Shown: positions 7,710 through 11,437 of the stretch, in pieces
Layout of the letters: the number at the start of each line of letters is the position of its first letter
Numbering within the stretch: position 1 is the first letter of the stretch
Assembly: GCA_003552125.1 (NCBI GenBank)
Contig: PUON01000027.1
Coordinates: 1-48,902, forward strand
From: Dehalococcoidia bacterium
Lineage (GTDB): Bacteria > Chloroflexota > Dehalococcoidia > GIF9 > AB-539-J10
DNA length: 48,902 bases
Reading direction: 5' to 3'
The notes under the pieces: generated by a model
The model's input: only the letters and a program-made list of their open reading frames with translations
Database searches by the model: none
Told to the model about the DNA's origin: nothing
Position numbers and translations under genes: made by a program

Positions 7710-8681
7710 CTACTTCTTCTTGAGGAGTTCGATCATCTGCGGGATCACTTGGTACAGGTCGCCGACCACCGCGTAATCTGCGATGCGGAACAGTGCAACC
7801 GACGGGTCTGAGTTGATCGCGACGATGGTCCCCGAATCACGTATTCCGGCGAGGTGCTGAGGAGATCCCGATACTCCGACACCGACGTAGAGCTTCGGCT
7901 TCACGATGGTGCCGCTGAAGCCCACCTGGTGATCCTTGCTGATCCAACCGTCGTCCACCAGCGGCCGGGTTGCACCGACAACTCCGCCGAGCGCGTCGGC
8001 AAGCTGCTGCACGAGTTCGAAGTCGTCGGCATTCCTCAGTCCGCGACCCGCGCATACTACGATATCCGCTCCCGCGATGCTCGCAGGCTTGGCCTCACCC
8101 TTCCCGAGGACTTTGACGCCGCTATCGACTTTCTCCACGCCTTTCTTGACGATCTCTCCCTTCCGGCCCTCATCTTTCTGCCCCGCTTCCAGTGCGCGGT
8201 ACCGCACTGTGACCATGGTGATGTCGGAACTGGTCTTCACATGGGCGAGGAAGTTGCCTGTGAACGCCGGCCGCACCTGGAGCAGAGAGCCATCCTCCTG
8301 CAGCTCGAGAGCTGTGCAGTTGGATGTGAGACCGGCCTCTACTGCTGTTGCCACGCGGGGCGCCAGCGCCTTTCCAGTCAGGGTGGAGCCGAACATAACT
8401 ATTGCCGGCTGCACCTCAGAAATGAGAGAGACCAGATTCTGCTTGTGGGCCAAGGAGTCGAACGTGGCGAGTGACTCGTCGTCGTAAACGTAAACAGTGT
8501 CGGCGCCGTAAGCCACCAACTCCTGTGCTGTTTCGGTGATCCCTGATCCCAGCACCGCACATGAGACCTTGGAGTCGGTCTTGTCCGCGAGATCTCGTCC
8601 CTTGCCGAGGAGTTCGTAGCAGATGGGGTGGACGCGTCCCCCTTCCCTCTCAACATATATGAGTATGCCTTTGTTTTCCAT
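7710..8681 (-). CDS. etfA: Electron transfer flavoprotein, alpha subunit
   Basis: This is the FAD-binding large subunit of ETF, about 323 residues, which takes electrons from acyl-CoA dehydrogenases. The N-terminal adenine-nucleotide hydrolase-like domain ends near residue 190. The C-terminal FAD domain shows the classic GATRPLVDDGW, QVGFSGTIVKPKLYVGVGVSG and INSDPSVALFRIADYAVVGD motifs. I prefer ATG 8681, with AAGGGG 8 bases upstream inside etfB; the GTG at 8684 is also in frame. It sits one or a few bases after etfB and is translationally coupled to it. No FixC/FixX or bifurcating dehydrogenase gene is adjacent, so whether this ETF bifurcates cannot be told. Confidence 0.95.
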   Translation of the reverse strand: MENKGILIYVEREGGRVHPICYELLGKGRDLADKTDSKVSCAVLGSGITETAQELVAYGADTVYVYDDESLATFDSLAHKQNLVSLISEVQPAIVMFGSTLTGKALAPRVATAVEAGLTSNCTALELQEDGSLLQVRPAFTGNFLAHVKTSSDITMVTVRYRALEAGQKDEGRKGEIVKKGVEKVDSGVKVLGKGEAKPASIAGADIVVCAGRGLRNADDFELVQQLADALGGVVGATRPLVDDGWISKDHQVGFSGTIVKPKLYVGVGVSGSPQHLAGIRDSGTIVAINSDPSVALFRIADYAVVGDLYQVIPQMIELLKKK

Positions 8682-8685
8682 CACA

Positions 8686-9477
8686 CTACCCCTTCAGCAG
8701 GCCCGCTTTGTCAAGCGCTGCAACGAGTTGACTGGCTGCGTCTTCCCCCTGGAGGACCTCCCCCTTTCGTTTCTTCTCCGGGGGCAGCGCGATGCTCTCG
8801 ACCCATGTGGCGGAACCCGCAATTCCCAACTTCACGGGATCAACGTCGCCCAGATCGGCCGCCGTCCATTTCTCGACCTCGGCCTTTCTTGCGCGCAGCT
8901 TCTCCTTCAGAGTGGGAAGCCGCGGAGTGTTCAGTTCCTTGGTGCCGGTGATGAGCAGAGGGAATGATGCCTCCACGCTGAGAGAACCAGCAGAGGTCTC
9001 CGTAACCGCAGTGACCTTATCAGTGCTGACTTTGGTGAGCTCAGACACGAACGGCAGAAGAGAGACTCCGAGCCGCTCCGCAAGCCCGGGGCCTACCTGG
9101 CCGGTGTCGCCGTCGACAGTTGTCTCTCCACAGAGGATCAGGTCGAAGTCACCCACCTTCCGGATCGCCGCAGCAAGTGTGTACGAGGTGGCGAGAGTGT
9201 CGGCACCCGCAAATGAGTCATCGTAAAGCAGGATGCCGCGGTCTGCGTCTCTCGCAATGCCTTCCCGCAATACTGCTTCGGCCGACTGCGGCCCCATGCT
9301 GATGACGGTGACGGTGGCGCCGAGTTGTTCCTTCATCTGCTGGGCTGCTTCGAGGGCATTCAGGTCGAACGGATTGATCTCTGAATCGGCAGACTTCCGG
9401 TCTACCCGGTTCGTCTCGCGTAGGAACTTGACCTTCTCAATATCCGGTACCTGTTTCGCTAATACGATAATATGCAC
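8686..9477 (-). CDS. etfB: Electron transfer flavoprotein, beta subunit
   Basis: The small ETF subunit, 263 residues, begins with the typical HIIVLAKQVPD strand. It has INPFDLNALEAA, a VDGDTGQVGPGLAERLG segment corresponding to the ETF-beta signature, and PRLPTLKEKLRARK near residue 195. The GTG start is preceded by AAGGAGGTG with about 10 bases between. It forms an ETF heterodimer with the downstream etfA. The broken acyl-CoA dehydrogenase fragment immediately upstream suggests that a dehydrogenase partner once stood in this operon. Confidence 0.95.
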   Translation of the reverse strand: MHIIVLAKQVPDIEKVKFLRETNRVDRKSADSEINPFDLNALEAAQQMKEQLGATVTVISMGPQSAEAVLREGIARDADRGILLYDDSFAGADTLATSYTLAAAIRKVGDFDLILCGETTVDGDTGQVGPGLAERLGVSLLPFVSELTKVSTDKVTAVTETSAGSLSVEASFPLLITGTKELNTPRLPTLKEKLRARKAEVEKWTAADLGDVDPVKLGIAGSATWVESIALPPEKKRKGEVLQGEDAASQLVAALDKAGLLKG

Positions 9478-9584
9478 GTCAGAACACCTCCTTCTATCGC
9501 GTCACACTCGCCTGAGAACTGAACGTGACAGCCGGGATTGCCGGTCCCGGTTCTCGATGCGATCTCTTCCTGGTCGCCAGGATT

Positions 9585-9745
9585 CACCAATCTCTTCACT
9601 GGATAGGAGCATGCGCATAATCTCGGACGTTCCTCCACCCCCCGTCCCGCACGCTGATGTCTCGCAGTAAGGGCTCCGCCAAATAGTAGGTGTAGCCGGG
9701 ACCGCAGAGTACGTTCATCGCCCTCCGATCTCCCTGCAGCGTTGT
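9585..9745 (-). pseudogene. Acyl-CoA dehydrogenase C-terminal remnant, frameshifted
   Basis: Reading the minus strand, one frame gives AMNVLCGPGYTYYLAEPLLRDISV and a neighbouring frame gives GGGTSEIMRMLLSSEEI. Together these are the C-terminal helix and signature of acyl-CoA dehydrogenases (GGxGYT...LLRD...GGTSEI). Removing one G from a run of six Gs near 9640 would rejoin the frames. Nothing upstream resembles the rest of the enzyme, so only about 50 codons remain. It lies just upstream of etfBA and just downstream of the dehydratase-like gene. The remaining 9478-9584 and 9746-9779 hold no gene. Confidence 0.65.
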
Positions 9746-9779: not shown

Positions 9780-11243
9780 CTACTTCTTTGGCGACGGCTC
9801 GGGGATTTCCTCCTCGATTCCGATAAGGCGGCGCGCGTAATCGACGGATTGGTCGAGTCCCGCATTCATGCGCACGACAAGCTTTGCTCCCTCAGGAGAC
9901 CCTCCTCCGTGCATGCAGCCAGGCACGCCTGCGCCCAGCGTCAGCCATTCGATCAGACGTGCGATCTTGGCGCGCGACTCGGCGGACGACGCAGCCTTGA
10001 GGTACTTCTGAACCAGGTGCCCGTGGTTCGGATCGGTGAAGTCTGCGTAAGATGGCAGACATCCGGTCTCTCCGATGCCGCCTGCGATCTCCTGCGTCAG
10101 GCGCTTAGTCTCGTATGGCAGCGTGGCAACGTGCACCTTGTTCACGTTCGCCAGCAGAGGGTTGGTCAGCCACGCACCGGACGGGTGCTTCTTACCGAGG
10201 ACGGCTGCAGCCACTCCGACGGCAAATGTAGTTTCATTGTTGACGTACATCTGCGTCAGCTTCTCATTGAACGCTCGTGTTGACAGGCCATTGGCGCGTG
10301 CAATCAAAGCTGCTGCACCGGCCATCACGTCGCCCTGTCCCGCAACGCACCCGCCAATTGCCGAGCGATAGGGACTTATGAAGTTCATCAACACCGAGCC
10401 GGTCGCCTTACACTCGCCACAGAGGAATACCCTCTCGTTGGGAACGAAGACGTCTTCAAAGAACAGGTATGCCTGAGTGGTGCCCCCGATTTTGACAGGA
10501 ACGTCGAAACCTTCCTCCGCTTCACGCGTATCGCTCGGGTGGCGAGCCTCTATGATGGTGAGTCCTTCGACATCCTTGGGAACGACAAAGGACACGGCGA
10601 AGTCCTTGTCGGCTTCTTTGTAGTTCGATCCCGGCAGCACAAAAACTTCCTGTGCTGCTGCCGTACCACAGATCATGACCTTGGCACCACGAACTACGAT
10701 TCCGTTGTCCCTGACGTCCACGATGTGAACGTTCATGTCGGGGTCCTCCTGCTGGGAGGGCGTCAGTGCACGGTCTCCCTTGGCGTCCGTCAGTGCCCCG
10801 GAAACGGTGATATCGTTGTCCTGTGCATAGCGCAGCCAGTCTTTGAGGCGCTGGTGGTACTGCGTCTCCTGATCCTGATCAAGATCCCAGGTGGTGGGCC
10901 ACATGGTGTTCAGGGCTGCATGACCGGCACATCTGCCACCTGTGCAAGTCCCGGTCAGGTGATACGCCTCACGCTTCATCCTGCAGTTCGCAATCATGTC
11001 ATCGGCAGATTGCAGGACTCCAAGGTAGCGGGATATATGATCGCCGGTAAGATGCGAGGTCGTTGAGAAGATCTCTGAGGTCTTGGGGTCAAGTGCGCCA
11101 GCGTATAACTGGGCGTGCCCCTCGACGGTACCTTTGGTGTGAGGATTCGTTGTGACATCTTCTATGAGCTGCCCAAACTTGTACATGTTTGGACGGAGTT
11201 TCCGCAGGGCTTCTTTATACTGCACGGGCGTCTTCAGGGCCAT
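9780..11243 (-). CDS. 4-hydroxybutyryl-CoA dehydratase/HpaB-family flavoprotein with altered active site
   Basis: The protein of 487 residues aligns by length and landmarks with 4-hydroxybutyryl-CoA dehydratase (AbfD), an FAD and [4Fe-4S] enzyme of the HpaB fold. It has TGTCTGGRCAGHAALN near residue 100, the HpaB-like VFVPNERVFLCGE segment near 266, and HGGGSPEG near 445. In the well-studied AbfD the cluster ligands, from memory, are Cys99, Cys103, His292 and Cys299. Here Cys100 and Cys105 are spaced one residue wider, position 292 is Tyr, 299 is Cys, and 296 and 300 are Ile and Val rather than Tyr and Lys. It is therefore a divergent paralogue whose substrate I cannot assign. AAGGAGGGG lies just before the ATG. 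Confidence 0.75.
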   Translation of the reverse strand: MALKTPVQYKEALRKLRPNMYKFGQLIEDVTTNPHTKGTVEGHAQLYAGALDPKTSEIFSTTSHLTGDHISRYLGVLQSADDMIANCRMKREAYHLTGTCTGGRCAGHAALNTMWPTTWDLDQDQETQYHQRLKDWLRYAQDNDITVSGALTDAKGDRALTPSQQEDPDMNVHIVDVRDNGIVVRGAKVMICGTAAAQEVFVLPGSNYKEADKDFAVSFVVPKDVEGLTIIEARHPSDTREAEEGFDVPVKIGGTTQAYLFFEDVFVPNERVFLCGECKATGSVLMNFISPYRSAIGGCVAGQGDVMAGAAALIARANGLSTRAFNEKLTQMYVNNETTFAVGVAAAVLGKKHPSGAWLTNPLLANVNKVHVATLPYETKRLTQEIAGGIGETGCLPSYADFTDPNHGHLVQKYLKAASSAESRAKIARLIEWLTLGAGVPGCMHGGGSPEGAKLVVRMNAGLDQSVDYARRLIGIEEEIPEPSPKK

Positions 11244-11363: not shown

Positions 11364-11437
11364 TCGGGGCGAGAGGACTCGAACCTCCGGCCTCAGCGTC
11401 CCGAACGCTGCGCGCTACCAGACTGCGCTACGCCCCG
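11364..11437 (-). tRNA. tRNA-Pro (anticodon CGG)
   Basis: A full cloverleaf of 74 nt reads on the minus strand. The acceptor stem is CGGGGCG/CGCCCCG with discriminator A, the D stem GCGC/GCGC, the anticodon stem CAGCG/CGCTG with loop TTCGGGA (anticodon CGG at 11403-11401), and the T arm GGAGG-TTCGAGT-CCTCT. The genome does not encode CCA here; the next bases are TAG. Confidence 0.96.

Follow-up and report, generated by a model that had tools for sequence, protein, structure and literature searches.

The locus studied here raises the question of what reaction is carried out by a protein that resembles 4-hydroxybutyryl-CoA dehydratase (AbfD) and lacks several residues expected at its active site. 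AbfD-type genes are used to mark the 4-hydroxybutyrate carbon-fixation cycles, and also GABA/succinate fermentation. In AbfD, we take Cys99, Cys103, Cys299 and His292 to be the ligands of the cluster, and Glu257, Tyr296, Lys300 and Glu455 to be the catalytic (acid-base) residues. The window, a 48,902-nucleotide stretch of DNA from a Dehalococcoidia bacterium with a genome of 2.09 Mb, carries an AbfD-like gene together with ETF genes and a dehydrogenase remnant (Table 1). Its protein product contains the Pfam domains HpaB_N and HpaB, and AbfD (PDB 1u8v) is its top relative of solved structure in a phmmer search. Its AlphaFold model, built from its own clade and with a pLDDT of 91.9, superposes on 1u8v with a TM score of 0.94 and an rmsd of 1.6 Å, placing it within the HpaB/AbfD fold. 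Fold, length and three cluster cysteines are shared with the AbfDs of Clostridium aminobutyricum (1u8v) and N. maritimus (6vjr), to which the window protein is 34–38% identical.

A sequence-only reading of this gene had proposed that its numbering runs closely enough with that of AbfD for individual sites to be compared. Phmmer and MAFFT alignments with 1u8v bear this out, as residue numbers coincide between about 250 and 320, and they agree with the substitutions that had been listed: Tyr at position 292 where AbfD has the ligand His, Ile at 296 for Tyr, Val at 300 for Lys, Cys at 299 as in AbfD, and a first cysteine pair spaced Cx4C (C100/C105) in place of Cx3C (C99/C103). The alignment does not recover His292, Tyr296 or Lys300 at shifted positions. 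Further losses beyond those first noticed are E257 to Q257, T190 to C192 and a four-residue gap beside E455, so that Glu257 and Glu455 are missing as well, and an extra cysteine, Cys395, has no AbfD counterpart. The new cysteines, the downstream ETF genes and the dehydrogenase remnant in the spacer had likewise gone without mention.

Table 1. Features of the AbfD-like locus in the window (positions count from the first letter of the window)
Feature	Position	Strand	Basis
AbfD-like flavoprotein gene, Tyr292 clade, 487 aa	9780..11243	-	ORF and translation
C100-x4-C105, first cysteine pair of presumed cluster; one-residue insertion relative to AbfD Cx3C	10929..10946	-	alignment
Cys192 at AbfD Thr190 position; mostly Cys within the clade, sometimes Ala	10668..10670	-	alignment
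Gln257 replacing AbfD Glu257	10473..10475	-	alignment
Y292-R-S-A-I296-G-G-C299-V300: His292, Tyr296 and Lys300 replaced, Cys299 retained	10344..10370	-	alignment
Cys395 in clade-specific 2-residue insertion; invariant; candidate replacement ligand	10059..10061	-	alignment
G442-C443-M444-H445 beside 4-residue deletion taking out AbfD Glu455 segment	9909..9920	-	alignment
Acyl-CoA dehydrogenase gene, decayed 3′ remnant, ~140 bp	9580..9722	-	blastn vs L012-L017: 67-77% identity, indels
EtfB, intact	8686..9477	-	Pfam ETF; dN/dS 0.07 vs L013
EtfA, intact	7710..8684	-	Pfam ETF and ETF_alpha; dN/dS 0.05 vs L013

The window protein also shares its Pfam domains and overall fold with HpaB, the oxygenase component of 4-hydroxyphenylacetate 3-monooxygenase. 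However, identity to HpaB over the structural match is about 21%, the alignment shows no cluster cysteines in HpaB, and the window protein falls below both NCBIfam cut-offs for HpaB (140 versus 480 bits for TIGR02309, 74 versus 885 bits for TIGR02310). The NCBIfam scores together with the cysteines rule out an HpaB monooxygenase. The genes next to the window gene include no HpaC-type flavin reductase partner; a PF01613 gene adjoins the AbfD-like gene only in the two Thermoplasmatota genomes. Because His292 and the catalytic residues are absent and the HpaB scores fall short, we place the protein and its clade in neither AbfD nor HpaB, although they may resemble AbfD in using FAD beside a cluster.

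The genome of the window encodes five further family members. Two of these are AbfDs in which every canonical residue is present, at 60% and 54% identity to the C. aminobutyricum enzyme, and this makes it unlikely that the window gene is a redundant second dehydratase. The AbfD paralogues L004, L005 and L006 have His292 and Lys300 and vary at Tyr296, Glu257 or Glu455, and the family has therefore diversified more widely in this genome.

Relatives of the window protein carry the same substitutions throughout. The combination Y/I/C/V at positions 292/296/299/300 was found in 31/31 distinct full-length relatives, and H/Y/C/K in 25/25 AbfD-type sequences, which excludes chance or sequencing error. 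All 31 share C100, C105, Q257, Y292, I296, C299, V300 and C395, the last at a position that is a gap in the 25 AbfD-type proteins, and a wider alignment of 68 rows, about 10 of which are the same genomes represented twice, gives the same pattern. Across the clade, C100, C105 and C299 occur in every member with Cx4C spacing, the ligand His292 is Tyr in all, and Gln, Ile, Val and a deletion or Gly stand in for Glu257, Tyr296, Lys300 and Glu455. Among 109 columns invariant in AbfD, 15 have switched and become fixed again in the Tyr292 clade, and these are concentrated at ligand or catalytic positions (5 of 8, versus 10 of the 101 others; Fisher p = 0.001). A further 58 of the 109 are retained, including H458 and a TDPKGDR-like core, and, judging by alignment and model, fold and conserved core are kept. 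The idea that the enzyme carries out another reaction than AbfD is well supported by these clade-fixed ligand and acid-base changes and by the canonical AbfDs in the same genome.

The question of whether the Tyr292 form is a clade is settled by the tree, which gives it a single origin (support 100/100) and a stem 1.24 changes per site long. Most of the AbfD-type sequences used for comparison come from Dehalococcoidia, and intermediates elsewhere may therefore have been missed. Clade members occur in six phyla (represented by Dehalococcoidia, Zixibacteria, Elusimicrobia, Bacillota, Synergistaceae and Thermoplasmatota), with fragments from others. Within Chloroflexota, we found the clade solely in the genus of the window and as one partial copy from the same order. 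In Zixibacteria it was found in 62 of 118 genomes, nearly always as a single copy and the sole family member found, and among 12 genomes from other phyla it was the sole family match in 7, an eighth having just one short extra match. A Synergistaceae subtype (L090, L217, L218; 43–45% identical) has all four invariant cysteines and lacks Q257, C192 and C443, with Ala at 190 and 257; two of its three members have Met300. Our literature search, with many subscription papers outside its reach, found no description of the Tyr292 clade.

In the genus of the window, an intact acyl-CoA dehydrogenase (ACAD) gene lies at the place of the remnant in all other genomes examined. The remnant has drifted and carries indels, which disfavours a gene missing merely by an assembly gap, and no close copy of this ACAD was found elsewhere in the genome. 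As the AbfD-like gene and EtfBA are intact next to the decayed gene, the AbfD-like enzyme does not need that ACAD. The genome has three EtfB genes, and retention of the ETF genes therefore proves little by itself, since there may be another reason for keeping them.

Gene order in Dehalococcoidia and Bacillota relatives is AbfD-like, ACAD, EtfB, EtfA, and one of the Bacillota genomes has a PaaK-like CoA ligase gene at the head of this tightly packed operon with ACAD and EtfBA. In Elusimicrobia, an ACAD adjoins the AbfD-like gene. Except for one adjacent canonical gene (L141), every linked ACAD carries Gly where the YEGT loop should have its catalytic Glu, a residue that is present in nearly all of the other ACADs sampled from these genomes. 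They are not of the LCAD/IVD type with an alternative Glu, as we read Ala or Gly at that site from the alignment. These base-less ACADs form one clade (support 96/94), and its distribution follows that of the AbfD-like gene: uncorrected for shared ancestry, the ACAD is present in 9 of 10 Synergistota genomes with the AbfD-like gene versus 3 of 141 without (p = 2e-11), and in 6 of 8 versus 0 of 53 among the Chloroflexota relatives (p = 5e-7). The two genes are on different contigs in the Synergistota genomes examined. In four phyla, then, a single clade of base-less ACADs accompanies the AbfD-like gene, by linkage or by co-occurrence, together with ETF genes. The partner is not universal, since in Zixibacteria and Thermoplasmatota no base-less ACAD is linked to the AbfD-like gene, nor did the ACADs sampled from those genomes include one; in some members from these two groups, a gene with a nitroreductase or flavin-reductase domain adjoins the AbfD-like gene instead. 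Other neighbours in Zixibacteria (SpoIIE/GAF phosphatase, EB_dh heme domain) give no clue to a pathway. In the searchable literature, many subscription papers lying outside it, we found no description of the base-less ACADs or of their partnership with the AbfD-like clade.

There are several possible explanations for this combination of a conserved scaffold and an altered active site. The origin of the window in a metagenome assembly and the remnant dehydrogenase next door might suggest a functionless AbfD copy, either decaying or misassembled, which we find hardly credible given that the reading frame is intact, that dN/dS is 0.02–0.08 (an approximate ratio, with dS near saturation), which indicates strong purifying selection, and that identical changes are found in independent genomes of six phyla. 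Purifying selection and the clade-wide signature rule out a decayed paralogue or an assembly error. With ligand and acid-base residues replaced alike in every member, it is nearly certain that the widespread clade protein is no broken copy but a distinct enzyme yet to be characterised. The sequence-only reading had allowed for an altered cluster or none, and for another substrate; this pointed in the right direction, and of the two states the altered cluster is the likelier because C100, C105 and C299 never vary and are joined by a new cysteine, C395, that is equally constant. Cluster loss would leave a plain flavoprotein, dehydrogenase- or reductase-like, with the cysteines in another role, for instance forming a disulfide or a zinc site, or serving as redox-active thiols. 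It would be in keeping with the missing ligand and changed spacing of the first cysteine pair, with HpaB relatives of the same fold that lack the ligand cysteines in the alignment and, to our knowledge, have no cluster, and with ETF, nitroreductase or flavin reductase genes as neighbours. We nevertheless judge it unlikely, since loss of the cluster would free C100, C105 and C299 to vary, and they are found in every member across six phyla while nearby catalytic residues changed. Our own reading is that the cluster is probably retained with changed ligation. FAD would most likely still be bound, as would an iron-sulfur cluster held by C100, C105 and C299, with Cys395, Tyr292 or the substrate as candidate ligands at the former His292 site.

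A retained cluster could also serve chemistry of the AbfD type, in a redox-neutral dehydratase, lyase or double-bond isomerase acting on a different CoA thioester with substitute acid-base residues, while ETF and ACAD take part in other steps of the pathway. The common fold and retained columns agree with such an enzyme, as do operons, typical of acid degradation, that include genes for CoA ligase, crotonase and CoA transferase, and a Synergistaceae AbfD-like gene unlinked to the ETF operon. This too we regard as improbable, because His292 and the four acid-base residues are all replaced and, apart from Tyr292 and the partly conserved Cys443, no obvious invariant acid-base substitute is found at those positions. 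The best explanation, on balance somewhat more probable than not in its joint form, is a distinct and functional clade that arose from the AbfD branch of the HpaB/AbfD flavoprotein family. We lean slightly towards its being an FAD/[4Fe-4S] enzyme that acts on a CoA thioester without the alpha-carbon base usual in the family and exchanges electrons with ETF or other flavoproteins. Because the acid-base residues of AbfD are lost, such an enzyme should neither dehydrate 4-hydroxybutyryl-CoA nor isomerise vinylacetyl-CoA. Linkage and co-occurrence suggest another CoA thioester as the probable substrate, in a pathway that in four phyla would also use the base-less ACAD and ETF; electrons would pass via ETF or, in other phyla, via the neighbouring nitroreductase or flavin reductase.

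As to the missing base, long-chain and isovaleryl-CoA dehydrogenases have an alternative one, and benzylmalonyl-CoA dehydrogenase releases CO2 as it oxidises an alpha-carboxylated substrate; we know of no AbfD-like partner for the latter. In all three, the glutamate position is occupied by glycine or alanine (PMC11659651), and in this the benzylmalonyl-CoA dehydrogenase is like the partner ACAD, a likeness drawn by description only. In our own reading of the fold, Glu455 of AbfD may be equivalent to the glutamate loop of the ACADs. More speculatively, an alpha-carboxylated (substituted malonyl-type) acyl-CoA, in which CO2 loss replaces alpha-proton removal, would explain the missing alpha-carbon base in both the AbfD-like enzyme and the ACAD. 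A fuller scheme has the cluster histidine swapped for Cys395, yielding an all-cysteine cluster beside FAD and turning a redox-neutral radical dehydratase into a net oxidoreductase that feeds ETF, and has a co-evolving base-less ACAD in an undescribed CoA-thioester pathway where decarboxylation or another step takes over from alpha-proton removal; taken whole, we consider this scheme quite doubtful.

Clade members would receive AbfD or HpaB annotations by homology yet should not carry out those reactions, and false pathway calls are possible, above all in Zixibacteria, where the clade protein was nearly always the sole member of the family found. The clade further supplies naturally occurring replacements of ligand and bases that bear on what the cluster histidine and the glutamates contribute to flavin/iron-sulfur radical catalysis. 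A conserved partnership between it and a base-less ACAD is likewise indicated.

In Synergistaceae, one operon (L206:66-8668) groups a base-less ACAD with EtfB, EtfA, an enoyl-CoA hydratase, a CoA transferase, a protein that we take to be a probable transporter and an MmdA-like carboxyltransferase, and looks like an undescribed acid-degradation pathway. In the window itself, a tRNA-Pro (CGG) gene (11364-11437, minus strand) shares the strand of the AbfD-like gene and is its immediate upstream neighbour.
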